From NCBI RefSeq assembly GCF_004360155.1, contig NZ_SAIS01000017.1:1-64000 (forward strand): 64,000 bases of DNA, read 5' to 3'. The position numbers were made by a program, and so were the translations under genes. The notes below the pieces were generated by a model. The model had not been told where the DNA came from. It searched no databases and saw only the letters and a program-made list of their open reading frames with translations. Numbering within the stretch: position 1 is the stretch's first letter; each line of letters opens with the position of its first letter. This DNA is from Paraglaciecola marina (GTDB taxonomy: Bacteria; Pseudomonadota; Gammaproteobacteria; Enterobacterales; Alteromonadaceae). This document shows, in pieces, positions 17,704 through 35,286 of this stretch.

Positions 17704-18239
17704 TAATATGTCGCTCCTTTTTCTAAGCCCTTTTCTAATCGCAAAAGGGTGATTTTAATTTGTTCTGCAGCAGCGAGAGTAATCTCTGTTGTTGTGTCAT
17801 TCTCTAAGCGTTCAGTTAATGCATCTAGCATGGTTTTAGCGCTTAAACCACTTGCACAGATAATGAAAATAAACCCATTTTTTTCTAAATATGTTTTATT
17901 AGCACCAGCTAATGACTCCAACACCTGTTCGTCTGCTTCAGATGCACCTTGTTGTTCGTTACTGGCCATGGATTTTGTTGAGGCGTATTTTGCTCTGAGA
18001 CTATTTACGTCACCAATCATTGGGTGTGCTTCAAACGCTTGCAAAAAGTCTGTGGTGCTACAATCTTGCCAGACTTTCTCTGAATAGCGTTTGACTGCAT
18101 CAATTGAGCTAAAAGGACGGCCAGCGGTCATGGCTTTAAACCATGATTCAGAAGCACAACACTGGCTAAACCAATTTTCTGCCTCGTGTGTTGATAGGTT
18201 GTTTAATGCTGATAAAGATAAGGTCATTGAGGCACTCAT
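17703..18239 (-). CDS. uraD: OHCU decarboxylase
   Basis: Decarboxylates 2-oxo-4-hydroxy-4-carboxy-5-ureidoimidazoline to S-allantoin. The 178-residue protein shows the family pattern: FSSIDAVKRYSEKVW, the catalytic FEAHPMIGDV with His, and FIFIICASGLSAKTML followed by RLENDTTTEI. It overlaps xdhC by 4 bases upstream and uraH by 1 base downstream, consistent with coupled translation of consecutive enzymes. Confidence 0.94.
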   Translation of the reverse strand: MSASMTLSLSALNNLSTHEAENWFSQCCASESWFKAMTAGRPFSSIDAVKRYSEKVWQDCSTTDFLQAFEAHPMIGDVNSLRAKYASTKSMASNEQQGASEADEQVLESLAGANKTYLEKNGFIFIICASGLSAKTMLDALTERLENDTTTEITLAAAEQIKITLLRLEKGLEKGATY

Positions 18240-19102
18240 TTTAATGGTTCAACTACTAAGGATTTAAATAGTAGTTTGTTGTCACGCCACGCTTGCTTAT
18301 CGGCATCTTCGTTCGGTGATTTTATGTTTAATTTTTGGATGATTTGGGCCGCCATAGAAACCGCTACCTCAATAGGTTTTTTACCTGGGATATCATGCAA
18401 TCCTACTGGGCTCACGAGTCGTTTAATATCTGTCGATGACCAGTCCCTATGGGCGAGCCGGGTAACGAACCTTCGTGCTTTTGTTTCTGAGCCTATCATG
18501 CCCACAAACGAAATTGCTTGATTGCTAAGGGCGGCTTCAACTATGTCAAAATCTAACTGATGGTTGTGGGTCATGACCATCACCCATGATGAGGCAGGCA
18601 GACTACTTAAGGTGTCTTCTGGGTGTTCAGCATGGTGTAACTTAACGTTAGAGGCGAGAGTTTGCTGATCAATCTCATCAAGTAGTTCTTGGCGATTATC
18701 AATCCAGCGAATTTGTAATGGTAGCTGAGCCAAAATCGGGACTAACGCCTTAGATACATGGCCAGCGCCATAAATGGCAATATGCTGAGTATGTTGGGTA
18801 AATACTTCAAACAACACATTGGTTGCTCCGCCACAGCATTGCCCTAATTTACTCGATAGAGGATAGTGCTCTACTTTTTGCGTGGCGCTATTCTCTAGTA
18901 GTAAGGCTCTAGCTTGCTTAGTGACTTCAAACTCTAAGTGACCGCCGCCAATAGTGTCAAAGGTAGAGTCGTCACATACTAGCATTTTGGTACCGCCATC
19001 TCTTGGTGTAGAGCCTGCCGTTGCTAACAAAGTAACGAGTACAAAGCTTTTACCCTGTTGCTGACATTGGTAGACAGCGTCAAACCAAGTGTTAGCTTTC
19101 AT
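18236..19102 (-). CDS. xdhC: xanthine dehydrogenase accessory protein XdhC
   Basis: Binds molybdenum cofactor and promotes its sulfuration and insertion into XdhB. Residues 1-110 form the XdhC/CoxI domain (LVTLLATAGSTPRDGGTKMLV, DTIGGGHLEF, GQCCGGATNVLFE). Residues 120-280 form a Rossmann domain with IAIYGAGHVSKALV. I set the start at the ATG at 19102, giving 288 residues and an 11-base overlap with xdhB. An upstream extension to 19216 would lie deep inside xdhB and looks like read-through of the other frame. Confidence 0.93.
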   Translation of the reverse strand: MKANTWFDAVYQCQQQGKSFVLVTLLATAGSTPRDGGTKMLVCDDSTFDTIGGGHLEFEVTKQARALLLENSATQKVEHYPLSSKLGQCCGGATNVLFEVFTQHTQHIAIYGAGHVSKALVPILAQLPLQIRWIDNRQELLDEIDQQTLASNVKLHHAEHPEDTLSSLPASSWVMVMTHNHQLDFDIVEAALSNQAISFVGMIGSETKARRFVTRLAHRDWSSTDIKRLVSPVGLHDIPGKKPIEVAVSMAAQIIQKLNIKSPNEDADKQAWRDNKLLFKSLVVEPLK

Positions 19103-21440: not shown

Positions 21441-22902
21441 GGCTAGTGACTCCAGTGCTATGGGGTACATGAACAACACGAGTTGCAATAGTGTTGGCTT
21501 GATGGTTACTCTCAAGCCAAAAGCGTTTCCATAAATTTGCCAACATAATCACTCTGTATTCTTTTGTTGCTCTAACATCATCCAAAGGAGTGAATGCTTT
21601 AGATAAAATATCTTTGCCGACTTCGAAGGTGAGCGAACTTGACCAATCTTTACCTATAAGAGCAGTATTCAGTTCTTCTACTATCGCAGGAATAGCCGCA
21701 ACGCCACCAAATCCGGCGCTTAGGCCAACTACTTTTTTGTCTTCGAGGGCAATATTAAAGACTGCACATACCGCAGATATATCATCTTCGTAACGCTTTG
21801 ATATTTTATACGCTCTAATGCTTTGATTGGGTTGTAAAAAAGGGATGAAAATAGCGGCAACCCATTCTCCCTGTTGTAGCACTGTTTTTCGATACCCTAA
21901 GAAAAATTCATTTGCCGCAACTGTGCGTTGTTCATAGCCATTATCAATATGTATTTCTGCATTTAGGGCTAATAATACGGGTGGCATATCACCTATTGGA
22001 GACGCATTTGCTACATTGCCACCTAGTGTCGCTTGGTTACGTATTGGCGTCGCTGCAAAGCGCCAAAGTAACTCTGATAAATCAGGGAAATGCTTTAATA
22101 GTTCAGGTTCGATTTCATTAAAGGGTAGGGCTGCACCTATTAGTAAACCCTTCTCTTGGGTATTAATGGTAGTTAATTCAGGTACTAAACTCAGTGATAT
22201 TAACTTGTCAAAGGTGTGCAGTTGCTGGGTAACTTGCAAGGCTAAGTCTGTACTACCAGCAAACATCTTTGCTGTTGGGTGGCTTTGTATAGCTTGGCTC
22301 AGCGCCTCTCTAGACGTTGGGATAATCAAATTGTCAGTATCTACCGAAGTTTTGTCGATAGATTTTAGTGTAGTAATAGTTTGTGCTTCCGCTCGGCTAA
22401 ATCTATCCTCAATTTTATCGCCACATATTTTTAGAGCGGCATCAATAATGGGACGATATCCAGTGCAACGACATAAATTACCTGATAAACCATTAATAAC
22501 GGCTTCTCTGTCTATTTCTGAGGGTTGATGATAAAGCGCAAACATAGACATAATAAAACCAGGTGTACAAAAGCCACACTGGGAGCCATGTTCTTCAACC
22601 ATACTTTGTTGCACAGGGTGTAAGGTGTTGCCGTCACTTAAATGCTCAACGGTTATTAATTGCTTGCCATGTAGCGCAGATAAAAATGTGACACAGCTAT
22701 TGATAGCTTTGTATTGAAGAGAATGGTCTGTTGCCTTTGATATTTCAGCCACAACCACAGTGCACGCTCCGCAGTCACCAGAAGCGCACCCTTCTTTTGT
22801 GCCTGTTAACTTTTTATTCTCACGAAGATATTCTAGTAAGGTTAGGTCCGCCTTTTCTTCCTGAATATGGTTCATCTGACTATTTAACAAAAAGCTGACC
22901 AT
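21433..22902 (-). CDS. xdhA: xanthine dehydrogenase small subunit XdhA (2x[2Fe-2S], FAD)
   Basis: Electron-transfer subunit of 489 residues. The N-terminal plant-type ferredoxin domain has CASGDCGAC plus a later Cys. The second [2Fe-2S] domain has CGFCTPGF and CRCTGY. From about residue 190 comes an FAD domain with AGSTDLALQV, LGGNVANASPIGD and FFLGYRKT, followed by the CO-dehydrogenase flavoprotein C-terminal domain. It heads the leftward purine operon; a GGAG ribosome site precedes the ATG at 22902, and a promoter and RutR-like operator lie just upstream. Confidence 0.95.
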   Translation of the reverse strand: MVSFLLNSQMNHIQEEKADLTLLEYLRENKKLTGTKEGCASGDCGACTVVVAEISKATDHSLQYKAINSCVTFLSALHGKQLITVEHLSDGNTLHPVQQSMVEEHGSQCGFCTPGFIMSMFALYHQPSEIDREAVINGLSGNLCRCTGYRPIIDAALKICGDKIEDRFSRAEAQTITTLKSIDKTSVDTDNLIIPTSREALSQAIQSHPTAKMFAGSTDLALQVTQQLHTFDKLISLSLVPELTTINTQEKGLLIGAALPFNEIEPELLKHFPDLSELLWRFAATPIRNQATLGGNVANASPIGDMPPVLLALNAEIHIDNGYEQRTVAANEFFLGYRKTVLQQGEWVAAIFIPFLQPNQSIRAYKISKRYEDDISAVCAVFNIALEDKKVVGLSAGFGGVAAIPAIVEELNTALIGKDWSSSLTFEVGKDILSKAFTPLDDVRATKEYRVIMLANLWKRFWLESNHQANTIATRVVHVPHSTGVTSHA

Positions 22903-22969: not shown

Positions 22970-22993
22970 AAACCTGACTAGTTGGTCAGGTTT
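22970..22993. promoter_or_regulatory. RutR-like operator between xdhA and its regulator
   Basis: The core ACCTGACTAGTTGGTCAGGT (22972-22991) lies in a 24-base inverted repeat with 9-base perfect arms. The centre TGACTANTTGGTCA fits the established E. coli RutR site (TGACCANNTGGTCA) with one mismatch. It sits in the divergent region between xdhA and the RutR-like gene, so it could control both. Confidence 0.78.
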
Positions 22994-23190
22994 GATTCGC
23001 AAGGATACAACAAAAAGTAGAAAATTCTACAATTAGTAAATTGAAAAGCAATTTAAATGCCGTTTACTGGCTCATTAGTACGATAGCTTTAGTTTGCTAA
23101 AGATTATTCCCAAAAAAGTGTTAAAGTATTAACTTATAAGAATAAAAGTACTTTGGTTAATTAGATGATTATAGGAATTAAAAACCGTTA

Positions 23191-23835
23191 ATGACTGCAA
23201 GTAGAAACGAAAAAGACGTCACTATTGGTGAGTTAAATAGAAGCAAAATCCTTCGCGCTGCCGAAGAAGAGTTTGCATCCCACGGATACAAAGGGGCAAG
23301 GGTACAGCAAATTGCTGATAGGGCAGGCTTACCTAAAACCAATGTTTTATATTACTTTAAAAGCAAAGAGAGCCTATATCTCGCTATTTTAGAAAATATA
23401 ATGCGGTTATGGAACAGTCGGTTTGATGAAGCAACTGTTCATGATGATCCTGCCAGAGTATTAGCGCAATATATTACTGATAAAATGGAAATATCGCGGT
23501 CTCATGCCAATTCTTCAAAAATATTCGCACTGGAAATTATCAATGGTGCACCAAACTTGAACGACTTTTTTAAAGATCAGCACTCAAAATGGATGGCAGG
23601 TAGAGTCGCTGTAATTAACGAGTGGATAAAAGCAGGAAAATTAAAAGAAACCAACCCCTATTACTTGCTATACAACATTTGGGGAACTTCTCAGCATTAC
23701 GCAGATTTTTCTACGCAAATTACGGAACTTCAAGGTAGTTCAATGGGTCAAAAAGATTTTGAAAATGCGACGAAAAATCTTATACATTTGATTTTAACGG
23801 GCTGCGATTTAACTGTCCCAGCTGAATTTAGGTAA
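23191..23835 (+). CDS. RutR-like TetR-family transcriptional regulator
   Basis: Regulator of 214 residues. The N-terminal TetR helix-turn-helix spans about 18-63 (RSKILRAAEEEFASHGYKGA, QQIADRAGLPKTNVLYYFKSKESLY). The C-terminal ligand domain resembles E. coli RutR, with KMEISRSHANSSKIFALEIINGAP, INEWIKAGKLKETNPYYL and IWGTSQHYADF. RutR senses uracil/thymine; here the neighbours are purine genes, so a purine-derived ligand is plausible but unproven. It is divergent from xdhA and co-directional with puuE (3-base gap). Four RutR-type palindromes in the purine island are its likely targets. Confidence 0.88.
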   Translation: MTASRNEKDVTIGELNRSKILRAAEEEFASHGYKGARVQQIADRAGLPKTNVLYYFKSKESLYLAILENIMRLWNSRFDEATVHDDPARVLAQYITDKMEISRSHANSSKIFALEIINGAPNLNDFFKDQHSKWMAGRVAVINEWIKAGKLKETNPYYLLYNIWGTSQHYADFSTQITELQGSSMGQKDFENATKNLIHLILTGCDLTVPAEFR

Positions 23836-23838
23836 TTT

Positions 23839-24741
23839 ATGAAACACGCATACCCAAGGGATTTAATAGGGTACGGTCAAAATCCCCCCAATCCACATTG
23901 GCCAAATAATGCCAAGATAGCCGTACAGTTTGTGCTGAATTATGAAGAAGGTGGAGAAAACAACGTTCTTCATGGAGATGAGCATTCTGAGATATTCTTA
24001 TCTGAAATTGTCGGAGCTCAAGCATATAAAGATCGCCACTTAAGCATGGAGTCTATGTATGAATACGGCAGTAGAGCGGGATTTTGGCGTTTATATAACT
24101 TATTTGTAAAGTATGACCTACCCATTACTGTATTTGGTGTCACTATGGCGTTACAACGCAATCCAGAGGCGGTTGCTGCTATGCAAGATGCTAATTGGGA
24201 AATCGCTAGTCATGCCATGCGTTGGATACATTTTCAGGATATGCCTGAAGAGCAAGAAAAGAAAATGATAGATGCGGCTATACAATTACATCAGGCTATT
24301 ACCGGCAGTAAACCCGTAGGGTGGTACACAGGGAGAACTAGCCCTAATACCTTAAAGTTGATTGCCAATAGAAATGATATTCTATATTGCGCTGATTCTT
24401 ACGCAGATGACTTACCCTATTACGACGAGCAATACGCCAAACCTTTATTGATGGTACCCTATACTCTAGACACCAACGATATGCGATTTGCGACCCCACA
24501 AGGGTTTAATAGTGGTGAGCAGTTTTATCAATACCTAAAAGATGCCTTTGATGTACTGTACGCTGAAGGTGAAACCGCCCCCAAAATGTTATCAATTGGT
24601 TTGCATTGCAGAATAATAGGGCGCCCAGCTAGAATGGCAGCCTTGCAAAGATTTATAGAGTACGTTCAGAGTCATGATAGGGTTTGGTGCTGTACTCGAG
24701 AGCAAATCGCGGTTCACTGGAAACAGAATTTCCCAGCTTAA
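23839..24741 (+). CDS. puuE: allantoinase PuuE (polysaccharide-deacetylase family)
   Basis: Metal-independent allantoinase that hydrolyses allantoin to allantoate. The 300-residue length and family patterns are typical: YPRDLIGYGQNPPNPHWPN, QFVLNYEEGGENNVLHGD, YEYGSRAGFWRLY, EIASHAMRWI and LHCRIIGRPARM. The fold is that of NodB-type polysaccharide deacetylases. It starts 3 bases after the regulator stop, so the two are probably one transcript. The pathway continues from UraD; no allantoicase or allantoate amidohydrolase gene is seen in this window. Confidence 0.94.
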   Translation: MKHAYPRDLIGYGQNPPNPHWPNNAKIAVQFVLNYEEGGENNVLHGDEHSEIFLSEIVGAQAYKDRHLSMESMYEYGSRAGFWRLYNLFVKYDLPITVFGVTMALQRNPEAVAAMQDANWEIASHAMRWIHFQDMPEEQEKKMIDAAIQLHQAITGSKPVGWYTGRTSPNTLKLIANRNDILYCADSYADDLPYYDEQYAKPLLMVPYTLDTNDMRFATPQGFNSGEQFYQYLKDAFDVLYAEGETAPKMLSIGLHCRIIGRPARMAALQRFIEYVQSHDRVWCCTREQIAVHWKQNFPA

Positions 24742-24765
24742 GTTAAATCACAAAAGTAACCCATA

Positions 24766-24804
24766 AAAAAACCGACTAAATTCAGATTGAATGAGTCGGT
24801 TTTT
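24766..24804. terminator. bidirectional intrinsic terminator between puuE and the purine permease
   Basis: ACCGACT (24771-24777) pairs with AGTCGGT (24794-24800), with an inner TTCA-GAT-TGAA stem. It is flanked by A5 on the left and TTTT on the right, giving U tails on both strands between convergent genes. Confidence 0.85.
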
Positions 24805-24854
24805 GTTTATTTAAAATGGATTGGTTTTGTAATAACAGCGGGTATTCCATAACC

Positions 24855-26183
24855 CTACTTTAAGTCTAAAACATACCTTAATACAAAAACTGCCGCCATG
24901 GCGTATGTGATCAAGGTTACTTGTTTGTAACGCCCTGTACCCATCATGATCCCCACATAAGTGATAAAGCCTAATGCTATACCTTCACTAATGCTAAACG
25001 TTAATGGCATGGCAAGTAACGCCACTGTTGCAGTGGCTAAGGCTGTTAAATCATCGAAATCAAGTTGTCTGAATGAATCCATCATTAAAATGCCAACCAT
25101 TATCAAAGCGGGAGTAGTAGCCATCAAAGGAATGACTTTCATGACGGGTGTTAGAAATAAAGCTAATAAAAAACATAAGGCGACAAATATTGTCGTTAAG
25201 CCGGTTCTACCACCTGAAGAGACCCCAGCGGCCGACTCTACATAAGAGGTAACAGGAGAGGTACCCACGGCAGCCCCCATAACACTTGCCACTGCGTCAG
25301 CTGTCATGGCTTTGCCTAGTTTCGGTAACTCACCTTGTTTATTGAGTAAGTTCGCGCGACGAGACACACCAATAAGCGTGCCGATAGTGTCGAACATGTT
25401 GACGAATAATAGTGCAAATATCAGATCCCATGTCTCTGCTAGGTGTTCAATTGGGTACATGATATCCATAGCAAAGAAGGTGTTTGAAATATCATCCGGT
25501 AAGCCGATAAATTGATCGGTATGTTGTGTTAAGTAGCCATCACCAACAGGTATAAATGCGCCTATGACACTTAAGGTAATAACGGATATTAAAATCGCCC
25601 CCGTCACTTTTCTAATGACCAATACTATTGTTAATATAATGCCGGCTAAGGCTAATAAAGTAGCTGGTTCAGATAGATCACCTATGGATACAAAGGTAGC
25701 GGGGTTATCGACAACCAGGCCTGCATTTTTTAATCCGATAAAGGCGATAAACATACCAATACCACATTGCACACCAATTTTTAGTGCCGCTGGAATCGCC
25801 TCTGCTATCTTGGTTCTTACCCCTGTAACAGATAACAGTAAAAACAATATGCCATTCCAAAAAACAATCCCTAAAGCGGCATCCCAAGGCACTTCTCTTG
25901 TTAAACAAATAGTAAATGCAAAGAATGCATTTAACCCCATACCGGGTGCCATAGCGATAGGATAATTGGTTATAAACGCCATAAGTAAACAACCTATACA
26001 TGCAGCTAATGCCGTAACGGTTATTAAGCCTTCAATGGGCATTCCACTGGCCCCTAATATGCTAGGGTTTACAACTAAAACGTAAGACATAGCAGCAAAG
26101 GTTGTCAGGCCCGCAATAAACTCAGTTTTTAGATTGGTGCCTTTTTGTTTTAATTGGAAATAATGCTCGAGTAGTTTAGACAT
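24855..26183 (-). CDS. NCS2-family purine permease (AzgA/GhxP-like)
   Basis: Proton-coupled nucleobase importer of 442 residues with about 12-14 membrane segments. The AzgA-like branch shows TNLKTEFIAGLTTFAAMSYVLVVNPSIL, MAPGMGLNAFFAF, FVNMFDTIGTLIGVSRRA and GTSPVTSYVESAAGVSSGGRTGLT. Members of this branch (E. coli GhxP/GhxQ, AdeP/AdeQ) carry adenine, guanine or hypoxanthine. Exact specificity cannot be read, but the divergent adenine deaminase gene suggests adenine or hypoxanthine. A RutR-like operator lies 71 bases upstream. Confidence 0.9.
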   Translation of the reverse strand: MSKLLEHYFQLKQKGTNLKTEFIAGLTTFAAMSYVLVVNPSILGASGMPIEGLITVTALAACIGCLLMAFITNYPIAMAPGMGLNAFFAFTICLTREVPWDAALGIVFWNGILFLLLSVTGVRTKIAEAIPAALKIGVQCGIGMFIAFIGLKNAGLVVDNPATFVSIGDLSEPATLLALAGIILTIVLVIRKVTGAILISVITLSVIGAFIPVGDGYLTQHTDQFIGLPDDISNTFFAMDIMYPIEHLAETWDLIFALLFVNMFDTIGTLIGVSRRANLLNKQGELPKLGKAMTADAVASVMGAAVGTSPVTSYVESAAGVSSGGRTGLTTIFVALCFLLALFLTPVMKVIPLMATTPALIMVGILMMDSFRQLDFDDLTALATATVALLAMPLTFSISEGIALGFITYVGIMMGTGRYKQVTLITYAMAAVFVLRYVLDLK

Positions 26184-26253
26184 CTGATTTCACTCTTGTT
26201 ATGGCTGATTTAATGATCATTTATTGAAAGCTAACGGAACACCCTGCAAAAAG

Positions 26254-26269
26254 CTGACCAATTAGTCTG
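26254..26269. promoter_or_regulatory. RutR-like operator between purine permease and adenine deaminase
   Basis: CTGACCAATTAGTCTG keeps TGACCA in the left arm and T-GTC in the right arm of TGACCANNTGGTCA. It lies in the 292-base divergent region, 71 bases before the permease start and 207 before the deaminase. It is the weakest of the four sites. Confidence 0.6.
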
Positions 26270-26475
26270 GTAATGCTGGGCTTTATGCTGTAAATAATAT
26301 CAAGGACTTACGACTAGGTCTGTAAACTTTTCAGAAATTAAAAACTCTTAAAGAGTTAGTAGTAGAAATATTGCGTTGTAAAAGAAAACTGTGCACCATT
26401 AATTAACGAAAAGAAATAATATGGTGCAAATTATCAAGTGCAGCGTTAAACATATGCTGAGTGACTAGGTGAGTA

Positions 26476-27486
26476 ATGAATAAAGAAGAATTAAAAAAAT
26501 GGGTATCGGTACAACCGAAAGTAGAACTGCATCTACATATTGAAGGCAGTCTTGAGCCTGAACTAATGATGGAGTTAGCCAAAAAGCACAGTGTTGAATT
26601 ACCCTATCAGTCAATTGCAGAAGTTCGTGAGGCATATGATTTTCAAGACTTACAGAGTTTTCTAGAGTTATATTATCTGGGGGCATCTGTGCTCATAGAT
26701 GAAGATGATTTTTATCACTTAATGTGGCGCTATTTATGTCACTGTAAGACCGATAATGTCGTCCATGCTGAAATTATGTTTGATCCGCAAACCCATACCG
26801 AAAGAGGTATTGATTTTTCAGTATTTATGGCGGGATTCAATCGCGCTATGAATCAAGCCAAACAAGAGTGGGGGCAATCCTGTTTGCTCATTATGTCCTT
26901 TTTACGGCATTTAAGTGAAGAAAGTGCCATCGAAACACTTAAGGCAGCCACACCATATTTGCCAAATATCACTGCGGTAGGCTTAGATAGTAGTGAAATG
27001 GGAAATCCTCCAGAAAAGTTTACTGAGGTTTTCAAAATGGCAAAAGCATTAGGATTAAAGCGCGTTGCCCACGCTGGTGAAGAGGGGCCGCCTGCATACA
27101 TTTGGGGGGCACTTAAGACTCTAGATGTTCATAGAATTGATCATGGTGTGCGTAGTATTGAAGATCCAGTTTTAATTGAGTTTTTAGTAGACTCTCAACA
27201 TCCATTAACGGTTTGTCCTTTATCTAATACTAAACTTAAAGTGTTTGAGCATATGCAGCAGCATAATATTTTAAAGTTGTTAGATTTAGGCTTACTGGTA
27301 ACAGTTAATGCTGATGACCCTAGTTATTTTGGTGGCTATTTAAATGACAACTACCATGCGCTAATTGATCATTTACCTATAAACAAAGAACAGTTATTGG
27401 TACTACTTAAAAATGGTTTTAATGCTAGCTTTCTACCTGAAGAAGATATCAAGAGTTGGTTGCTTAAGTTAGATATACCCGAATAA
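26476..27486 (+). CDS. adenine deaminase (adenosine-deaminase superfamily, Aah1/PA0148-like)
   Basis: Zinc deaminase of 336 residues. Metal and active-site motifs are KVELHLHIEGS, HAGEEGPP, RIDHGVRS and NADDPSYFGGY. The segment GLDSSEMGNPPEKF replaces the GLAGDE typical of adenosine deaminases and is characteristic of the adenine deaminase branch, so adenine to hypoxanthine is the more likely reaction. It is divergent from the AzgA-like permease, and its product feeds XdhAB. A strong terminator follows. Confidence 0.88.
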   Translation: MNKEELKKWVSVQPKVELHLHIEGSLEPELMMELAKKHSVELPYQSIAEVREAYDFQDLQSFLELYYLGASVLIDEDDFYHLMWRYLCHCKTDNVVHAEIMFDPQTHTERGIDFSVFMAGFNRAMNQAKQEWGQSCLLIMSFLRHLSEESAIETLKAATPYLPNITAVGLDSSEMGNPPEKFTEVFKMAKALGLKRVAHAGEEGPPAYIWGALKTLDVHRIDHGVRSIEDPVLIEFLVDSQHPLTVCPLSNTKLKVFEHMQQHNILKLLDLGLLVTVNADDPSYFGGYLNDNYHALIDHLPINKEQLLVLLKNGFNASFLPEEDIKSWLLKLDIPE

Positions 27487-27504
27487 GGATTTCTAAGCTC
27501 ATAG

Positions 27505-27531
27505 AAAAACGGCTCTTAATGAGCCGTTTTT
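27505..27531. terminator. bidirectional intrinsic terminator
   Basis: AAAAACGGCTC-TTAAT-GAGCCGTTTTT is an 11-pair perfect stem with a 5-base loop and A/T flanks that give U tails both ways. It separates the adenine deaminase from the convergent small exported-protein gene. Confidence 0.9.
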
Positions 27532-27555
27532 AGGTTGAGATTTTAGGAGCTTTAA

Positions 27556-27822
27556 CTATCTTTCTTTACCGGCCTTAGCTACAACTATTTGCAAAGCTTC
27601 TGATTTGCTGAAGCCAGCTTCAATTAGTGCCAAATAGTGTTTCCTTAATAACGTAGCTTGAGCATTAACCAATCGATCATTACTAAAAGCTTGAGTTTCG
27701 TTTAGTAATTGTTCAGATAGCTGAGCAGTCATAAAGTTATCAGGACGTTTATGTTCTTGGGCCTCTGTAGCGCCAATATATAGTGTTATTAGTGCTGGTA
27801 TAACAAGGGTTTTCTTAAACAT
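27556..27822 (-). CDS. small exported protein of unknown function
   Basis: Eighty-eight residues with a probable signal peptide (KKTLVIPALITLYIGATEAQ). The mature part is helical and charged, ending FSKSEALQIVVAKAGKER. No family is recognised. It follows the NUP-cupin gene by 65 bases on the same strand and may be its downstream partner; the SKSEALQIV helix looks like a small interaction domain. The convergent terminator at 27505 would end its transcript. Confidence 0.6.
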   Translation of the reverse strand: MFKKTLVIPALITLYIGATEAQEHKRPDNFMTAQLSEQLLNETQAFSNDRLVNAQATLLRKHYLALIEAGFSKSEALQIVVAKAGKER

Positions 27823-27887
27823 GTTATTGGAACCTTATTTTGTATCAGTTAATAATTGATTCTAAAAACATACGTTAGTTCATCTTA

Positions 27888-29537
27888 TCATCGGCTTAAC
27901 ATTTTTATTAGTTCTGCATGCTTTGGAAATTTGGCCAGTAATTTTTGTGTTTCTCCTAATTGCATATCTTCATATTCAAACCCAGGAGCAACCGCTTCAC
28001 CAATTAGCCCATAGCCGTATTCTTCATCTGTAGGTATTATGGACGCCTTCCAAATACCGCCTTTCACCATCATTTGCATTTTATGACCTTTAGTAGGATC
28101 AGGCCCCATTATGACGGTTTCTAGAGCGCCATCGGGATGTAGCAAATAATAGGTTATAGGGTCACCCGCATGGAAGTAATGCATAATATCTGATTGATTC
28201 ATATGAAAATGGCCGATAGGGGACTCTGCACTCAATAAATAAAAAATGCTAGTCATTAAGCTTCGTAACCCACTGTCAGTTGAAATTTTAGGCCTGTGGG
28301 AAGCTTTAAAAGTTTGTTTAAAATAACCTCCTTCGACATGCCCCTCTAACCCAAGCGCTTTTACTAATTGCTCAGTTGTTAGATGTGTAGATTTCAAAGT
28401 TGTTGTCTCAGGCTGTGGCGGTAGATTTCTGGTTCCTACCTTCTGACTAGGCGTTAAGGCAGTATAGGGTAACGCAGACTTATATTGGTCCCAGTTGGCA
28501 ACTATGGTATCGACGACTTTACTCCCCACTAGATAAGCTGACTCTAATGATGAACGCATGCCTGCAAAACCCGCTTCACCACTTTCATTTGTTAAGTTTT
28601 GTGAAGCACTAATTCCAGTGGGAGGCGTAGCGTAATTACTCGCGGTTCTTAGCACTAAAAAACGTTGCTTATCAGCCTTGTTGGCCTTGTCAAGGTAAGT
28701 TATGGCTTGGTAACTTCCTGTGTCTTCCATCCCTGACGTAACAAAATTACCTTTACCTTGAGTCCAATAGTGAGTCCAATCGTTAGCCCACTGGTTAAGT
28801 TTGTCACCATGCCAAAAGGTAGATGCTGCCATTTGGTCACCTTTTAATACGAAAGGGGGCTTTTGGGCGTTAGGATATTGGGTATATTGGCTTCTAAGCT
28901 CATGCATAGATGCATAATCATTTAACGGTATATCCTTTGTTAATTCGTAGGCCCAATCAACAAGATGCTCATCTAACTTATATACTTCACCATTTTTAGA
29001 TAGTGAACCTTCTGGCGCCGTTGTTCCATTTGAGACTGGCGCGTTAGCAAACAAAGGAAAATAACCACTGGCCCAGTTTTTTGGGATCTCTCTAGCGTCT
29101 ATTTCATGGGCTAAGTCACCATCTACCAGGTAGGTGGCCCATACAGCAGAACCTATTGAAGCGTCAGCTGGATCAACCCCAGCAATGCCCGCGACTAACC
29201 AATAAGCATGGGTAAGGTCAAACCTTGGATCTAAGCCCAATGCCATGATAGCTGCGGTGGCCCTAGCGGTCCCCATTCCAGTTACTATCCCCATCACCCC
29301 AGTTTTAGGATTGATACAAATCTCATGAAATGACGTGTCAAAGGGTAGGCAGGTGTTGAGTTCTTGTCCGGCTTTCCAAAGTTGAAACTCTCCAGGTTTA
29401 TCCCCTTGGTCTTCACCAATTTCAAACATATTCACGACAACGACTTTTATTTCTATCTTTGTGTTTATCTGTTCTGGCTTTTCACTACACCCCCAAAAAA
29501 ATAGTAAGCAAAGGGGTATCAATAGTTTAGCGTTCAT
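27888..29537 (-). CDS. predicted lipoprotein with fused NUP (purine nucleoside permease) and cupin_5 domains
   Basis: Two-domain protein of 549 residues. A signal peptide with Cys17 in FFWGC resembles a lipobox, though Trp and Phe before the Gly are unusual. Residues about 28-365 match the NUP family (IKVVVVNMFEIGEDQGDKPG, MGIVTGMGTARATAAIMALG, YWLVAGIAGVDP, SGMEDTGSY), which is related in fold to nucleoside phosphorylases. Residues about 384-549 match the cupin_5/DUF985 family (LEGHVEGGYFKQTF, GHFHMNQSDIMHYFHAGDP, VAPGFEYEDMQLG). Its place beside a TonB receptor and purine permeases suggests a periplasmic step on nucleosides. The activity of either domain here is unproven. Confidence 0.78.
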   Translation of the reverse strand: MNAKLLIPLCLLFFWGCSEKPEQINTKIEIKVVVVNMFEIGEDQGDKPGEFQLWKAGQELNTCLPFDTSFHEICINPKTGVMGIVTGMGTARATAAIMALGLDPRFDLTHAYWLVAGIAGVDPADASIGSAVWATYLVDGDLAHEIDAREIPKNWASGYFPLFANAPVSNGTTAPEGSLSKNGEVYKLDEHLVDWAYELTKDIPLNDYASMHELRSQYTQYPNAQKPPFVLKGDQMAASTFWHGDKLNQWANDWTHYWTQGKGNFVTSGMEDTGSYQAITYLDKANKADKQRFLVLRTASNYATPPTGISASQNLTNESGEAGFAGMRSSLESAYLVGSKVVDTIVANWDQYKSALPYTALTPSQKVGTRNLPPQPETTTLKSTHLTTEQLVKALGLEGHVEGGYFKQTFKASHRPKISTDSGLRSLMTSIFYLLSAESPIGHFHMNQSDIMHYFHAGDPITYYLLHPDGALETVIMGPDPTKGHKMQMMVKGGIWKASIIPTDEEYGYGLIGEAVAPGFEYEDMQLGETQKLLAKFPKHAELIKMLSR

Positions 29538-29576
29538 GACGCATCCTCAATTTAATGTTGTTTTATTAGAAGATAT

Positions 29577-29610
29577 AAAAAAGGGTAAATATGCAGAACA
29601 TATTTACCCT
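29577..29610 (-). terminator. intrinsic terminator after the TonB-dependent receptor gene
   Basis: AGGGTAAATATG (29582-29593) and CATATTTACCCT (29599-29610) form a perfect 12-pair stem with a 5-base loop. On the minus strand it is followed by six T (29577-29582). It lies 24 bases past the receptor stop and only about 40 bases before the NUP-cupin start, so the latter would need read-through or its own short promoter. Confidence 0.85.
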
Positions 29611-29633
29611 CAATACTAATGTAAAGCTAGAAC

Positions 29634-32027
29634 TTAGAACTTATAAGTAAATTTCGCTTGATAATGGCGAGGCAATTCAGGTAACACGATTTGCGCTCCA
29701 AATAAATCAGGGAAGTTCGCTCTGTAGTACTTTTCATCGGTTAAGTTTTTAATATTTAAACTAGCCGTCCAAGACTCAGCTTCGTAAAATACCCCGGCAT
29801 TGATTAGGGTATAAGAAGGTAAAGTGACTACCTGTGAGAAGCTTGAAAAGGTTTCATCCGCTTTTACAACACTTGCGTTGGCAGCAAAACCATTTTGGAA
29901 ATCATAAGTCGCATTTAAGGTATAGATATTTTCAGGAATACCGGCTTTGCGTGATTCTTCTTTACTACCAACCCAATTTAATCCTATAACATTACCACCA
30001 TACATTAACGAAGGATCGGTTAGTAATGTTAAGTCTTCAGCACCTAAGAAGCCAAACTGACTTCCATTTTCAAGCGCCGTTAAGTTGTAGACTTTAATAT
30101 TGGTATAACCAGCACCAATTACTAAGTTATCGTTGATAACCCAGCGTAATTCAAACTCAGTACCTTTGTTTTCTGTAGTAGAATTGGTAACAATAGCTTG
30201 AGCATTAAAGTCAGAACGTTCTTGCTCATAGACTGATAACGCAAAATAAAGACTGTCGTCTAAGAACGAACCTTTAATACCATATTCAAATAGTTCTGAG
30301 GTATCAAAAGCGCCGTCTTCTAATTGGCCTACACCTATTTCAGCACCTTGACCTGCAACTAAAGTAGCTTGTTCAGCTGCTGTAATGTATGGGATAAGAC
30401 CAATAGGAGTCTTGAATGAAATACTAGTATTCCAAGAAACACCACTTTCAGTGCCACTAGCTGATTCTACTTCACCACCACCTAATAATAGGTCGCCTCG
30501 GCTGGTTGTTTCGATATCAATTGAGTCATAACGTAAACCTAACACAATATTTAAACCGAAGTCCCATGTTAGGTCTGTCATTGCCGCTATACCTAAATCA
30601 GTATAATTACCTTTGTCGTAATTATCGTAGTTAGCATTAATTGACGTGGCTAACTGTCTTTTATCAAGGGCAGTAGACGGACCGGTTAAGTCTCGGCGGT
30701 TAAAGTATTCATAAGTAAAGTCATCACCGTGTAAAAACTGAGTATGACGAATTGATGGCGATACTTGTAATTGTGCCAAAAATGAATCTGTTTCCCACTC
30801 GTTTGAGAAAATTAATTTATTTTCAATAACAGAGCTGTCATGGAACTGAGAGAAGCCATAGGCGTTCTCATTTAGGTTGTCATATGCTTCATAAAACAAC
30901 TGGTTTTTAATTTCCCAGCCGTTTTCTGAGAAATAAGTGATATCAAAGTACAGGGTTTCAACTTCATTTTGTAATACATCTTCAGGCGCAACTAATACTT
31001 GGTTGCCTTTAAGTTTGGCCGTTCCAACATTTTCAAGCTGCATTAAATCAGTTGCTTCATCATCAGTGAAATCAACAATACCCGGCAAATAGAAAAAACT
31101 ATTACCCCCTATGTTAACTGCACCATACTCGTCATGTGAAATTAAGCCGTCACCACTTGTATCTAGTGGTTTTGCAGTGCCAGTAACATAGGTGCCGTTA
31201 TCAACTAAATCTTGAGTTAGACGGTTCCAACCCGCTACTTGGTTACCATCATAATCATGGTACATCGCACCGAATTCAACTAAAACGTTATCGGTTACAT
31301 CAATATTAAAAGATGCTTGTAAAACAGTCTGATCTGTATCTGTATTGTCGTAATAGCTTCCTGAATTTTCTACCTCACCATAAAGGTAAAAACCCATTTC
31401 CTTATCGCCAATCTTACCAGGACCACCTACTTCTGCAGTCATAATGCTCTTGTCCCAAGAGCCTAATGTGTAAGAAAACGCACCTTCATTTTCATCTAAA
31501 TATTGACCGCCACTTGCACGGGCCGACTTAGGGTTAAAGTTAAGGTATCCACCAATTTTAGCTGGACCATAAATAGGAGATGCGGGGCCACGCACAATAT
31601 CAATACGGCTAGATGCGCCGATTGGAGTAGGGTAGTTACCTGGATTATCTAGGCGCTTAACCCCTCGGAAATAGGTTTCACCTGGCGTACCACGTACATC
31701 TAATGAGCCGGCAACACCAAAGAAAGACTGGGTAAACGTACCCGGCGCAAACGCTACTAATTCATCAATATCGCTTACACTAAAACGTTCCAATTGTTCT
31801 TGACTGATGGTAGATGCAGAACGTGGTGTTTCAAGAATAGATTTACCAAAGCCAAATACAGCTTCAACATCTTGACCTGGAAGACTGCCCAAGGAGCCAG
31901 TTACCTGTATACGCTCTACTGATTCTTCTTCACTTTCTTGAGCTAACACTTGGCTAGGCAAAAATACTGCTAACCCAATTGCTACAGCAGTAGCAACAGA
32001 GCTTGATTTGAACGTTTTGTTTTTCAT
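29634..32027 (-). CDS. TonB-dependent outer-membrane receptor, probably for purines or nucleosides
   Basis: Outer-membrane receptor of 797 residues. A signal peptide ends near VLAQ at about 29; the plug domain follows (ILETPRSASTISQEQLERFS, DVRGTPGETYFRGVKRL, RIDIVRGPASPIYGPAKIGG), then a 22-strand-type beta barrel with Tyr/Asp-rich loops and a terminal Phe (YQAKFTYKF). Substrate cannot be read from sequence. The purine-gene context and a RutR-like operator in its promoter suggest purine or nucleoside uptake. It ends at a strong terminator. Confidence 0.92.
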   Translation of the reverse strand: MKNKTFKSSSVATAVAIGLAVFLPSQVLAQESEEESVERIQVTGSLGSLPGQDVEAVFGFGKSILETPRSASTISQEQLERFSVSDIDELVAFAPGTFTQSFFGVAGSLDVRGTPGETYFRGVKRLDNPGNYPTPIGASSRIDIVRGPASPIYGPAKIGGYLNFNPKSARASGGQYLDENEGAFSYTLGSWDKSIMTAEVGGPGKIGDKEMGFYLYGEVENSGSYYDNTDTDQTVLQASFNIDVTDNVLVEFGAMYHDYDGNQVAGWNRLTQDLVDNGTYVTGTAKPLDTSGDGLISHDEYGAVNIGGNSFFYLPGIVDFTDDEATDLMQLENVGTAKLKGNQVLVAPEDVLQNEVETLYFDITYFSENGWEIKNQLFYEAYDNLNENAYGFSQFHDSSVIENKLIFSNEWETDSFLAQLQVSPSIRHTQFLHGDDFTYEYFNRRDLTGPSTALDKRQLATSINANYDNYDKGNYTDLGIAAMTDLTWDFGLNIVLGLRYDSIDIETTSRGDLLLGGGEVESASGTESGVSWNTSISFKTPIGLIPYITAAEQATLVAGQGAEIGVGQLEDGAFDTSELFEYGIKGSFLDDSLYFALSVYEQERSDFNAQAIVTNSTTENKGTEFELRWVINDNLVIGAGYTNIKVYNLTALENGSQFGFLGAEDLTLLTDPSLMYGGNVIGLNWVGSKEESRKAGIPENIYTLNATYDFQNGFAANASVVKADETFSSFSQVVTLPSYTLINAGVFYEAESWTASLNIKNLTDEKYYRANFPDLFGAQIVLPELPRHYQAKFTYKF

Positions 32028-32129
32028 TGTGGTTTTCCCGAATATTATAATTTACTTCTACGCACCGGATATGGTCAATCGGCCGCTTTTTTATGTGTCT
32101 TTAGATGGGTTGCACAATTAATGCCAATG

Positions 32130-32149
32130 ACCTGTCCATTTGGTCAGGT
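32130..32149. promoter_or_regulatory. RutR-like operator upstream of the TonB-dependent receptor
   Basis: ACCTGTCCATTTGGTCAGGT is a 20-base palindrome with one mismatched pair, and shares ACCTG...CAGGT with the xdhA operator. It lies 103 bases before the receptor start. On the minus strand a possible -35 (TTGGCA) follows directly. A half-site TGGTCAA also occurs at 32072-32078. Confidence 0.72.
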
Positions 32150-32235
32150 TGTGGGCTGGTAATGTAATCAGTTGATTTTAATTAAAATTTTTGAACTAAT
32201 TGAATGTATATATATCTCACTACGAAAATATGAAC

Positions 32236-32286
32236 CATATAACACTATATAATGCCCCTTTTTGGGGCATTATATAGTGTTATATG
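32236..32286. repeat. 23-bp perfect inverted repeat (long hairpin)
   Basis: Arms at 32236-32258 and 32264-32286 are exactly complementary over 23 bases, with a TTTTT loop. The loop-proximal end is GC-rich (GCCCC/GGGGC) and the outer part is AT-rich (ATATAACACTATATAAT). It lies 35 bases beyond the oxoguanine-deaminase stop on that gene's downstream side, so it may end or stabilise that transcript. No T tract follows on the minus strand, and the perfect pairing resembles a small mobile or REP-type repeat. Confidence 0.85.
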
Positions 32287-32321
32287 CACTTTCATGGATG
32301 GGTACTTTGACTTTTACTATT

Positions 32322-33686
32322 TTAATTAACGGCTCTGCTCTGTAGCTTTCTTGCCAAAATTTGATGTTCAGACATCAATTTTGCAGTGTCAATATCAAGG
32401 TGTTGTTCATCTTCAACAACCCACTTGCCGGCAATCATGAGTTTTTCAACTTTATAAGCACCACAGGTCACAAGTGCATCTAATGGGCTACCTACACCAG
32501 AAAACCGTAATTCATTTAGTGAAAACATGGCAATATCTGCTTGTTGACCTGGTTTAAATTCACCTAAACTAGGACGTTGCAATACTGCAGCTGAGCCCTT
32601 AGTCGCAAAACTTAATACTTTTTCTGCAGTGATAACTTCAGCACCATAGCGTAATCTTTGTTGTAACAAGGATTGCCTTGCTTCTTGGATCATATTTGAA
32701 CAGTCATTAGATGCTGAGCCATCAACGGCTAAGCCAATGTTACAGCCGGCATTTTCAAGATCGACCGTGGGGCAGATACCAGAAGCTAGTAACATGTTTG
32801 AACTAGGACAATGTGCTATTCCTACTTTTGCCTTGCCTAAACGCTGTATCTCATCTGGTGTAAAGTGAATACCATGGGCCAGCCATGTTTTGCTATTTAG
32901 CCAATCACAGGACTCTAAATAATCTAATGGGCGCATACCATACTCCCTAAGACAAAAGTTATTTTCATCTTCAGTTTCCGCTAAGTGAGTATGTAATAAC
33001 ACCTTATTTTGACTAGCAAGTGTAGCCGTGTCTTTCATTAATTCAGTCGAAACCGAAAAAGGAGAACAAGGTGCCAATGCTATTTGGATAAAAGCGTCAT
33101 CGGCTCTGTCGTGATATTGGCTTATCAACCTTTGGCTATCTTCGAGTATGGTATCTTCAGTTTGAATAACACTGTCTGGAGGGAGACCTCCGGCGCTTTC
33201 TCCAAGGCTCATAGAGCCCCGTGTCAACGTGGCCCTGCATCCTAAGGATTTTATAGCGTCTACTTGAATATCTATTGCATTTTCTAAGCCTTTTGGGAAC
33301 ACGTAGTGATGATCTGCAATGCATGTAGCACCGGATAACATTAACTCCAAGCCCGCTAATTGGGTGGCACTATAAATCATATCTTCATCTAAATGCGCCC
33401 ATACCTTGTATAGAAATTTTAACCAAGGAAACAAAGGCTTATTTATAGCCCCAGGTACACAACGAGTCAGTGTTTGGTAAAAGTGGTGATGGGTATTGAT
33501 GAGCCCTGGAGTAATAACCATATTGCTACAATCAATGTAGCTATCTACTGTGTTTTTGGGGTTTTGGCCGCTTGGGACTAACTCAATAATTTTATTCCCT
33601 TTTACAACCACTCCATTACCCGCATTGAATTCATTACCGGTAAATACAGCAGCGGGAGATTTTAACCACATGGCTTTATCTGACAT
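32322..33686 (-). CDS. 8-oxoguanine deaminase-like amidohydrolase
   Basis: Zinc amidohydrolase of 454 residues in the branch that includes Pseudomonas PA0142 (8-oxoguanine deaminase) and hydroxydechloroatrazine ethylaminohydrolase-like annotations. Motifs: GLINTHHHFYQTLTR, HTHLAETEDEN, AHGIHF, HCPSSNMLLASG and the branch-typical LAVDGSASNDCSNM. Likely reaction: 8-oxoguanine to urate, and possibly other oxidised or substituted purines; the product urate would enter the PuuD pathway. It begins 9 bases after the permease gene on the same strand, so the two form an operon. Confidence 0.85.
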   Translation of the reverse strand: MSDKAMWLKSPAAVFTGNEFNAGNGVVVKGNKIIELVPSGQNPKNTVDSYIDCSNMVITPGLINTHHHFYQTLTRCVPGAINKPLFPWLKFLYKVWAHLDEDMIYSATQLAGLELMLSGATCIADHHYVFPKGLENAIDIQVDAIKSLGCRATLTRGSMSLGESAGGLPPDSVIQTEDTILEDSQRLISQYHDRADDAFIQIALAPCSPFSVSTELMKDTATLASQNKVLLHTHLAETEDENNFCLREYGMRPLDYLESCDWLNSKTWLAHGIHFTPDEIQRLGKAKVGIAHCPSSNMLLASGICPTVDLENAGCNIGLAVDGSASNDCSNMIQEARQSLLQQRLRYGAEVITAEKVLSFATKGSAAVLQRPSLGEFKPGQQADIAMFSLNELRFSGVGSPLDALVTCGAYKVEKLMIAGKWVVEDEQHLDIDTAKLMSEHQILARKLQSRAVN

Positions 33687-33695
33687 TCTTAACTC

Positions 33696-35045
33696 TTAAA
33701 CTTTCTCTGCAACAGACTTTGTTGGTTCTGGGATTAATACACTCATAATTATCGCACAAAACCCTGCGGTAGTAACAGATGAAGAAATAATATTCTTCAC
33801 TAAAAGAGGCATTTGCATCAGTACATCTGGCACCATCATCACGCCTAGGCCTAAACCCATTGAGGTGGCGATTATCAGTCCTTTTCTTCTATCTATTGGC
33901 TCACTTGTAAGTATTTTAATACCTGCCGTTGCTATAGTTGCAAACATCACTAACGTTGCTCCACCTACCACAGGTTTTGGCATTAATTGAAGAACTGAAC
34001 CAATGATCGGAAAAAGGCCCAGAATGACTAAAAAGCCAGCAATGTAAAATCCTACATGACGACTAGCAACACCAGTCATTTGTATTACTGCGTTATTCTG
34101 TCCGAAGGTAGTGTTGGGGAAGCTGTTGAATATGGCCGCCAACATTGAATTAACGCCATCCGCTAGAATCCCGCCTTTTATGCGTTTTATGTATAGTGGG
34201 CCACTAATAGGCTGCTTACAGAACAAGCTATTGGCGGTTAAATCTCCCGATGTTTCGATTGCACTAAGCAAATAAACTAAAGCAACAGGTACAAATATAT
34301 CCCACTGAAATGATATGCCATATTTAAACGGCTCTGGAAAACTAAATATAGGAAAGTCGAGCATATCATCGAAGGATAATACACCCTGCCACCAAGAGAT
34401 TACGCAACCTACAAACATACCTATGAAAATAGCTGATAGTCTTAAAATTGGATGTTTAGACAAGTTTAGTACCACAACGATAAACATGACTGTAAACCCT
34501 AAACTGATGTTTTCAACTGACCCTAAGTCTTCCGCACCAAAGCCGCCAGCTAAATCTGTCATACCTACTTTTATGAGGGTTATACCAATAGTTGTAATCA
34601 CTATGCCTGTGGTAAGTGGCGTTATCACTGCTTTTAAATGGTCTATAAAGCGGCTAAGGACTATTTCAATGAAGGCTCCCCAAAAGCATATTCCAAACAT
34701 GACTGCGAGTATTTCCTCGTTACTGCCTCCTTGTCCTTTTACTGCAAAACCCGCAATCAAAAGAGCGCTGATAAAAGTAAAGCTAGTGCCTTGCACGGCA
34801 ATTAATCCACATCCTATGGGCCCAAAGGTTTTGGTTTGAATAAAGGTTGATATGCCTGACATCATTAATGCCATACTGATCAGATAGGGGATTTCTGCTG
34901 TCAATCCTAATGCTGAGCCTATAATTAGTATTGGGGTAATAATTCCTATAAAAGAAGCCATGACATGTTGTAAAGCCGCATTGATACAATGTAATACTTT
35001 AGGTTTGTCGTGTAAGCCGTACATTATTTCGTCATTGTTCTGCAT
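33696..35045 (-). CDS. NCS2/NAT-family xanthine-uracil-urate-type permease
   Basis: Inner-membrane permease of 449 residues with about 14 membrane segments, of the NAT branch distinct from the AzgA-like permease at 24855. It shows GCGLIAVQGTSFTF, SAIETSGDLTAN, and the signature region FPNTTFGQNNAVIQMTGVASRHVG. The usual NAT motif is QNxGxxxxT; here the Gly is Ala (QNNAVIQMTG), a change at a substrate-site motif. Similarity to XanQ/UacT types suggests xanthine, urate or an oxidised purine. It leads an operon with the oxoguanine deaminase; a RutR-like operator lies 57 bases upstream. Confidence 0.9.
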   Translation of the reverse strand: MQNNDEIMYGLHDKPKVLHCINAALQHVMASFIGIITPILIIGSALGLTAEIPYLISMALMMSGISTFIQTKTFGPIGCGLIAVQGTSFTFISALLIAGFAVKGQGGSNEEILAVMFGICFWGAFIEIVLSRFIDHLKAVITPLTTGIVITTIGITLIKVGMTDLAGGFGAEDLGSVENISLGFTVMFIVVVLNLSKHPILRLSAIFIGMFVGCVISWWQGVLSFDDMLDFPIFSFPEPFKYGISFQWDIFVPVALVYLLSAIETSGDLTANSLFCKQPISGPLYIKRIKGGILADGVNSMLAAIFNSFPNTTFGQNNAVIQMTGVASRHVGFYIAGFLVILGLFPIIGSVLQLMPKPVVGGATLVMFATIATAGIKILTSEPIDRRKGLIIATSMGLGLGVMMVPDVLMQMPLLVKNIISSSVTTAGFCAIIMSVLIPEPTKSVAEKV

Positions 35046-35102
35046 AGAGATAAATTACCAATACTTGTTATGTTTCAATATAAAAGTTTACTAGCAATAT
35101 TG

Positions 35103-35116
35103 TGACCACTTGGTCA
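35103..35116. promoter_or_regulatory. RutR-like operator upstream of the xanthine/urate-type permease
   Basis: TGACCACTTGGTCA is an exact match to TGACCANNTGGTCA and a perfect palindrome apart from the two central bases. On the minus strand the TTGACC on its upstream side could serve as a -35 box, so binding would block the promoter. The divergent sulfurtransferase starts 170 bases away. Confidence 0.78.
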
Positions 35117-35286
35117 ATTGCTACCTTATGAGCTAGGTTACTGATAACATTGCTATTATTAAATTTCGTTACAGATAGATCGTGTGAAAAGAGTGACTTA
35201 ATTTTTAATGTTTGCTACATCATGGTGCAGGTTAACCTTACTAAATAAACAATAAGCGCTTAGGTTGGTTTTACTTAGGATAAAAA

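Follow-up and report, generated by a model that had tools for sequence, protein, structure and literature searches.

Which protein, responding to which signal, controls the purine genes in the first 64,000 nucleotides of contig NZ_SAIS01000017.1 of Paraglaciecola marina (RefSeq assembly GCF_004360155.1)? In this whole stretch, called the window throughout, a first-pass annotation made from the letters alone had noticed a recurring palindrome in four promoter regions and a gene for a RutR-like regulator of the TetR family, and had proposed that a relative of the pyrimidine sensor RutR is here re-assigned to purines. The answer that we consider probable is that the protein encoded at 23191-23835 is a dimeric RutR-like TetR repressor acting on operators of the type TGACCANNTGGTCA, which shuts purine uptake and upper purine breakdown until a purine product releases it. 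With it, purine scavenging in the Alteromonadaceae would gain a named regulator, operator and receptor.

Four palindromes and their conservation

The core TGACCANNTGGTCA occurs at 22975-22988 with one mismatch, at 26255-26268 with two, at 32133-32146 with one and at 35103-35116 with none, and all four cores are intergenic, which confirms the palindromes at the promoters where the first pass had placed them. Operator 1 (AACCTGACTAGTTGGTCAGGTT, 22971-22992) has the highest matrix score of the window, 27.5, and lies between divergent genes, with the start codon of xdhA about 73 bp and that of the regulator about 200 bp away. Operator 2 (26251-26272, score 24.0) stands between a purine permease and an adenosine/adenine deaminase, whose starts are about 72 and 208 bp distant; operator 3 (32129-32150, score 20.5) is about 106 bp upstream of the start of a TonB-dependent receptor; and operator 4, with its exact core (35099-35120, score 15.4), is about 58 bp upstream of the genes for a NAT permease and an 8-oxoguanine deaminase.

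These scores come from a 22-bp weight matrix trained, with the window excluded, on the regulator-xdhA operators of 26 relatives, which are family genomes picked for having the regulator beside xdhA and whose regulators are 46-68% identical to that of the window. Run over the 64 kb, the matrix ranks the four sites first to fourth, with 7.4 for the fifth place; in 20 first-order shuffles of the window no score exceeded 13.5. The intergenic region between regulator and xdhA holds a site at two or fewer mismatches in 27/27 loci (window included) and at one or fewer in 25/27; a counterpart of operator 1 is present in 26/26 relatives, and in every one of the 26 the regulator adjoins puuE and is divergent from xdhA. 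Exact sites number three in the organism's own genome, where 0.21 would be expected from the base composition of the window (P 0.0014). Across the 26 genomes with a window-type regulator there are 45 exact palindromes, against 8 for the control; in family genomes lacking any RutR-like match (54 scanned out of 67) the figures are 25 and 22, which is no enrichment. The sites, the way they are kept together with the regulator and their excess in regulator-bearing genomes are thus computed results, and because the matrix is independent of the window, the conservation is complete and the exact sites exceed expectation, the view that the palindromes form a genuine operator family, conserved across the Alteromonadaceae and tied to purine genes and to the 23191-23835 protein, is supported by sequence comparison.

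Profile searches place the genes around the four sites in the upper purine pathway, and the set of targets extends beyond the window. Besides operator 4, the exact sites are at C5:180339, upstream of a PfkB-family kinase and an inosine-uridine nucleoside hydrolase, and at C23:6587, upstream of ureD and within the 3′ end of the preceding open reading frame. Eight places in the genome have one mismatch, among them the xdhA and TonB receptor sites of the window; the others are C3:208789 (before purH), C5:240435 (before a nuclease-like gene), C9:81377, C21:7242, C30:5841 and the unassigned C2:396945. We rejected C9:81377 as a target, since it is a terminator-looking palindrome between convergent genes, as well as C21:7242 and C30:5841, both of which are inside open reading frames. 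When relatives were searched for sites at two or fewer mismatches within 400 bp upstream of each gene, with the backwards pattern as control, the kinase operon had its site in 16/26 (control 0) and the TonB receptor in 15/19 rows from 13 relatives (control 2/19), two of the misses being mid-gene pieces. A site of the operator 2 type was found in 15 of 17 permease-deaminase intergenic regions, the window counted. The purH site scores 10.4 with the matrix, a value for the organism's own genome only, and the nuclease-like gene has its start in view in 3/22 rows and a site in one of those three; urease, purH and the nuclease-like gene are possible targets. Joining outer-membrane, inner-membrane and enzymatic steps in one circuit, as the first pass had proposed, is therefore real on comparative grounds, and the circuit is larger than was stated: purine genes do share operators here, though the regulon reaches past the locality, since a conserved strong site lies elsewhere, before the nucleoside kinase/hydrolase operon.

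The operators depart from a perfect palindrome in ways that go with the promoter. The xdhA site has T1A in its xdhA-side half in 15/27 loci, the permease/deaminase site has C5T in 11 of the 15 regions with a site, and the TonB receptor site has A3T in 12 of the 16 with a site (window included), counts that omit the rows without a site (4/19 for the TonB receptor, 10/26 for the kinase, 2/17 for the permease regions) and are not independent, the rows including close kin. This pattern suggests that affinities are tuned to each promoter.

The regulator, its pocket and its relation to RutR

The proposed trans-acting factor (23191-23835, plus strand, 214 amino acids, characterised by NCBIfam, PDB and a structural model) falls under both RutR cut-offs, with 186 bits against TIGR03613 (cut-off 368) and 155 bits against PRK15008 (cut-off 230). 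Its best PDB match is E. coli RutR (3loc, E 2.8e-39), and its AF2 model (mean predicted local distance difference test, pLDDT, 87.7) has RutR for all of its best eight Foldseek chains (E about 1e-11, 36% identity). As befits a TetR protein, the model has an N-terminal helix-turn-helix and an all-helical ligand domain of RutR type, and a palindromic operator lies near its own gene in the 27/27 regulator-xdhA regions and in 12 of 18 named Alteromonadales loci. These 12 have a site at two or fewer mismatches between the genes or close upstream of the regulator, 11 within 420 bp and L096 farther up; the named set overlaps the family genomes at L104/G043 and L105/G015, and its gene tables were viewed for 6/18 Alteromonadales and 14/62 other named loci, and for 7/18 in the later site test. 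The nearest named relative is from Paraglaciecola arctica (74%).

The genome holds two further RutR-like proteins, at C2:322375, divergent from rutA, and at C15:17642. The first is taken as the true RutR; it passes PRK15008 (287) and misses TIGR03613 (314 of 368), so the latter cut-off is not decisive by itself. The neighbours of the window regulator are xdhABC-uraD and puuE, and not a rut operon. On a tree of 100 RutR-like proteins, built with the recognition-helix columns removed, single branches unite RutR (n=8, support 100 in the Shimodaira-Hasegawa-like approximate likelihood ratio test), the window clade (n=32, 93), the type found at C15 (n=18, 93) and two more Alteromonadaceae types (n=19 and n=8, 100 each), while 12 of 13 Pseudomonas-type proteins group together with one apart, and two proteins stand outside every named group. 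The window regulator lies outside the clade of E. coli RutR. Judged by sequence, it is a RutR-like paralogue and not RutR, since a RutR sits beside rutA on contig C2 and the tree separates the two; the first-pass description as RutR-like thus stands by profile, PDB match and fold, with the amendment that the protein belongs to a clade of its own. As an observation apart, contig CANMKA010000001.1 of an uncultured Paraglaciecola carries two window-type regulators (L099 and L106, 60% and 57%) separated by about 15 kb. xdhA adjoins neither of them; one lies near the permease and the other near NAT, TonB receptor and 8-oxoguanine deaminase genes.

Among known regulators, XdhR of Streptomyces is a TetR repressor of xanthine dehydrogenase. 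E. coli RutR (YcdC) resembles the window regulator in fold, in a K and an L of the recognition helix and in five uracil-contacting residues, and differs in its clade, in that the window protein scores below both NCBIfam cut-offs and in the neighbourhood of xdh and puuE, with a RutR beside rutA also present. The window core is presumably like the E. coli RutR site. The match to that site, which the first pass described as seen directly, is better taken as presumed, and in the rut operators of the family the outer base is usually another one. In the literature consulted the E. coli site is given only as "approximately 16 bp palindromic". In P. aeruginosa, PA1504, a TetR protein with a YcdC/RutR domain near an allantoin/gcl purine cluster, is described in the sections consulted as a possible regulator under study (PMC12694930), and is similar in being a RutR-type protein near purine genes. 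Unlike the window clade, the 13 mostly Pseudomonas relatives on our tree have K and H in the helix (13/13, PA1504 itself being outside the set), and their loci gave no clear operator (21 matches against 15 in the control). UgmR (PA1520), according to the same sections, represses purine/allantoin genes and is relieved by uric acid (PMC12694930); it belongs to the GntR family, whereas the window regulator is a TetR protein. A comparison of RutR regulons in 68 genomes describes pyrimidine catabolism and taxon-specific motif changes, and its main text, as far as available, has no mention of "xanthine" or "xdh" (PMC5343134). No description of this regulon was recognised in a PMC literature search judged by titles and abstract openings.

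What signal would such a paralogue read? E. coli RutR contacts uracil through W77, Y97, W167, Q171 and Q179 of the partner chain (PMC10891134, in part), and its ligand is reported to be uracil and not thymine (PMC6245113, in part). All five residues are kept in the window regulator, as W74, Y94, W164, Q168 and Q176, and are invariant in 27/27 loci and in 32/32 proteins of the window clade. The regulator may for that reason have retained uracil as its effector and so couple purine breakdown to pyrimidine availability, an alternative that we regard as unlikely, if a serious one. The same pocket is largely common to the clade of the allantoicase operon on C15 (the first four residues in 18/18, Q176 in 15/18), so these residues are no marker of uracil specificity. 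Moreover, 19 positions are fixed differently between the window clade and RutR, four of them in the DNA-binding domain, and some lie near W74 in sequence (N75, F78 and A81, against L, L and F in RutR), where the changes could reshape the pocket. Xanthine and urate repeat the N-H/C=O pattern of uracil in their six-membered ring, and by this analogy the effector may be a compound with a uracil-like ring such as xanthine or urate. The re-assignment to purines is accordingly plausible, and only that because none of the five contact residues has changed; with this locus one could ask directly whether a RutR pocket recognises the shared ring pattern rather than uracil alone.

A second alternative concerns the protein and not the ligand: the true RutR of contig C2 might bind the four sites, so that the purine genes join a pyrimidine/uracil regulon and the 23191 protein is minor or redundant. 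RutR and the window clade have the same pocket and the same recognition-helix residues (K49 and L53 in 32/32 window-clade proteins and in 8/8 RutR proteins), the genome has a two-mismatch site between rutA and rutR, and RutR motifs are reported to vary by taxon (PMC5343134, in part). Set against this, a second RutR-like match (38-42% identity) is listed in 6/26 relatives, which is a RutR beside rutA in five and another type in G015, an extra 29% match with two stops in G141 not being counted among the six. The xdhA operator is nevertheless kept in all 26 relatives and the regulator gene adjoins it, and matrix scores for the rut intergenic regions range from 2.4 to 15.0 over seven loci, the organism's own genome giving 6.4. 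We consider this explanation improbable and retain the 23191-23835 protein as the candidate binder.

A second paralogue and a second operator

The third RutR-like protein is encoded in an operon (G000 C15:8000-27900, L075) with allantoicase, ureidoglycolate lyase and malate synthase G, in front of which, at C15:22271, lies an exact TGACACTTGTGTCA. This second palindrome, of the form TGACACNNGTGTCA, is found upstream of xdhA in 21 of 32 family genomes that lack the window-type regulator, the remainder having a TGACCA-type site (5) or neither type (6); two of the 34 xdhA-bearing genomes gave no locus. In the regulator-xdhA region the TGACCA type is found in 27/27 and the TGACAC type in 0/27, and the association of operator type with presence of the regulator is strong (Fisher 2e-10, 53 classified loci, kinship ignored). 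xdhA itself was found in 2/67 family genomes without a RutR-like match as against 32/53 with only other RutR-like proteins.

Proteins of the C15 type have R and H at helix positions 49 and 53 and form one clade on the helix-free tree. This type and two groups defined by pocket residues were chosen by those very residues, which makes their residue counts circular. What is independent is that each forms a single clade on that tree, and the association of helix with operator was tested genome by genome. Where RutR-like proteins of genomes with TGACAC before xdhA were examined, an R,H protein was present in 20/20, and it was present in 0/5 genomes with the TGACCA type; of the six genomes with neither type four were examined, three having an R,H protein and one none, and G130 and G069, two of these three, have an exact TGACAC site at a greater distance upstream. 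In E. coli RutR, K52 is thought, by comparison with QacR, to contact guanine (PMC10891134, in part). We infer that the two helix residues shift the operator from CA to AC, an association that may reflect one clade-level event. Operator class and two helix residues nonetheless co-vary across dozens of genomes, and the genome provides a concrete case of paralogous repressors that would divide one catabolic pathway without cross-talk.

More tentatively, and with slightly more doubt than belief, RutR could be seen as one branch of a family of "imide readers" that kept a pocket for the uracil ring and was split among nucleobase pathways. K49/L53 would read TGACCA and R49/H53 TGACAC; three paralogues would run the pyrimidine steps, the upper purine steps with uptake and the lower purine steps through three operators; and promoter-specific, orientation-fixed operator defects would set the order of induction. 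The C15-type match was found in only this one of six same-genus genomes searched (its own included), the operon perhaps having been acquired here or lost elsewhere.

Several further observations concern such sites and proteins. Three identical TGACACCGGTGTCA palindromes, further exact matches to the second operator type, lie within about 30 kb at G000 C2:264212, C2:272097 and C2:294502, with a CG centre unlike that of the C15 operator. RutR-like proteins with E at pocket position 176 form one clade of 8 (L283, L284, L286, L291, L297-L299 and L303), mostly beside amidase, gamma-glutamyltranspeptidase-like, TauE-like, class V aminotransferase and M20 genes and sometimes near xdhA or 8-oxoguanine deaminase, with sites resembling TGACCTNNTGGTCA or TGACCGNNCGGTCA. 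Those with F or I at position 94 form one clade of 19 (L086, L082, L088, L265, L267, L271 and others). Genes for a large TonB receptor, alkaline phosphatase, pyrimidine nucleoside phosphorylase and a protein of the endonuclease/phosphatase family are often their neighbours, and exact TGACCANNTGGTCA sites are frequent there, in what looks like a regulon for scavenging extracellular DNA or nucleotides.

The proposed circuit and its genes

In the mechanism that we favour, the dimeric 23191-23835 protein would bind TGACCANNTGGTCA-type operators and, when bound, would shut the TonB receptor, the permeases, the deaminases, xanthine dehydrogenase and probably the nucleoside hydrolase operon; a purine breakdown product would release it from DNA, the candidates being xanthine or urate acting through the conserved pocket of W74, Y94, W164, Q168 and Q176. 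The lower steps, from allantoate through ureidoglycolate and glyoxylate to malate, would be run by the C15 paralogue through TGACACNNGTGTCA.

Binding by this protein, repression and the xanthine or urate effector are inferred, repression from the positions of the sites and the TetR family, and this is one of several points that weigh against the proposal. Allowing up to three mismatches, the window shows no excess of the 14-mer (23 seen, 22.1 expected), and neither does the genome at up to two (132 places, where the backwards control gives 214); these counts being at or below background level, the bare pattern with mismatches is not used as support, and the genome-wide scan suggested in the first pass bears out the exact sites (3 against 0.21) but not the looser pattern. 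A genome search with a sequence model, which scored 150 of 2,989 candidates, returned ten places including three of the four window sites and missed that of the TonB receptor. The NAT site is found within 400 bp in only 5/14 relatives (control 0/14), an exact site lying 1.5 to 1.7 kb upstream of NAT in four more genomes (G141, G089, G117 and G068), and the urease site is not conserved in the three relatives with ureD (0/3 at one mismatch, 1/3 at two within 1000 bp). The named locus L107 has xdhA with only a three-mismatch site there, its exact site being at the permease, and in 5/18 named loci xdhA does not come into view. A site upstream of the permease is present in four of the five (one exact, one with one mismatch, two with two), and L106 has sites upstream of NAT and near 8-oxoguanine deaminase; uptake genes may on this account be the steadier targets. 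G048 has a TGACAC site before xdhA and no RutR-like match in a genome that is 85% complete. Finally, there are two further RutR-like paralogues, and as the K and L of the recognition helix are common to RutR and the window regulator, cross-binding is possible.

Two simpler explanations fare worse than those considered above. The palindrome at 22970-22993 might form a hairpin in the xdhA leader and act there as terminator or attenuator: on the minus strand its score is terminator-like, with nine pairs and a T tail, and the palindrome at C9:81377 has the same motif. We judge this very improbable, since relatives keep the letters and not the pairing (A at the first core position breaks the outer pair in 15/27, always in the xdhA-side half) and since the other three window sites are absent from the terminator listing. 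That all four are chance matches in AT-rich intergenic DNA, a reading to which the lack of enrichment at two to three mismatches lends itself, is hardly credible in view of the independent matrix, the 27/27 conservation and the enrichment with the regulator.

The genes around the operators were assigned by profile. On the minus strand lie xdhA, the small subunit of xanthine dehydrogenase (21433-22902; TIGR02963 554 bits, cut-off 467), xdhB, its molybdopterin subunit (19092-21515; TIGR02965 1182.6 bits), the accessory protein xdhC (18236-19216; TIGR02964 267.9 bits) and uraD, an OHCU decarboxylase (17703-18239; NCBIfam PRK13798 163 bits, cut-off 124), as well as guaD, a guanine deaminase (16035-17360; TIGR02967 583.8 bits), for which an operator of its own was looked for in the window and none found, and a urate oxidase with a Urate_ox_N and a weak cytochrome c domain (14831-16045; Pfam PF06181 413 bits). 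Directly behind the regulator is puuE, an allantoinase (23839-24741, plus strand; TIGR03212 517 bits). Operator 2 is flanked by the purine permease of the Xan_ur_permease superfamily (24855-26183, minus strand; Pfam PF00860 158 bits) and the adenosine/adenine deaminase (26476-27486, plus strand; NCBIfam PRK09358.1-6 "adenosine deaminase" 492.5 bits, cut-off 419). A search for Rfam riboswitches over 12000-41000 at gathering thresholds gave no match, and a promoter scan found 32 against 37.2 in shuffles, which is no excess.

Downstream of operator 4, on the minus strand, are the NAT/NCS2 xanthine-type permease (33696-35045; TIGR00801 348 bits, cut-off 292; TIGR03173 399.6, cut-off 414) and the 8-oxoguanine deaminase (32322-33686; NCBIfam PRK08203 647.9 bits, cut-off 532). 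The minus-strand gene at 27888-29537 encodes a fusion of a purine nucleoside permease-family (NUP) domain and a Cupin_5 domain (PF06516 377 bits, PF06172 144 bits), and several relatives match this fusion by a short separate piece only. The TonB-dependent receptor (29634-32027, minus strand) has a Plug domain and 119 bits against TIGR01783, below the cut-off; its match is in two pieces in G065 C34 (L226, L229), where they adjoin in a single open frame, and in G004 C49 (L225, L230), where about 14 kb separates them and one contains a stop.

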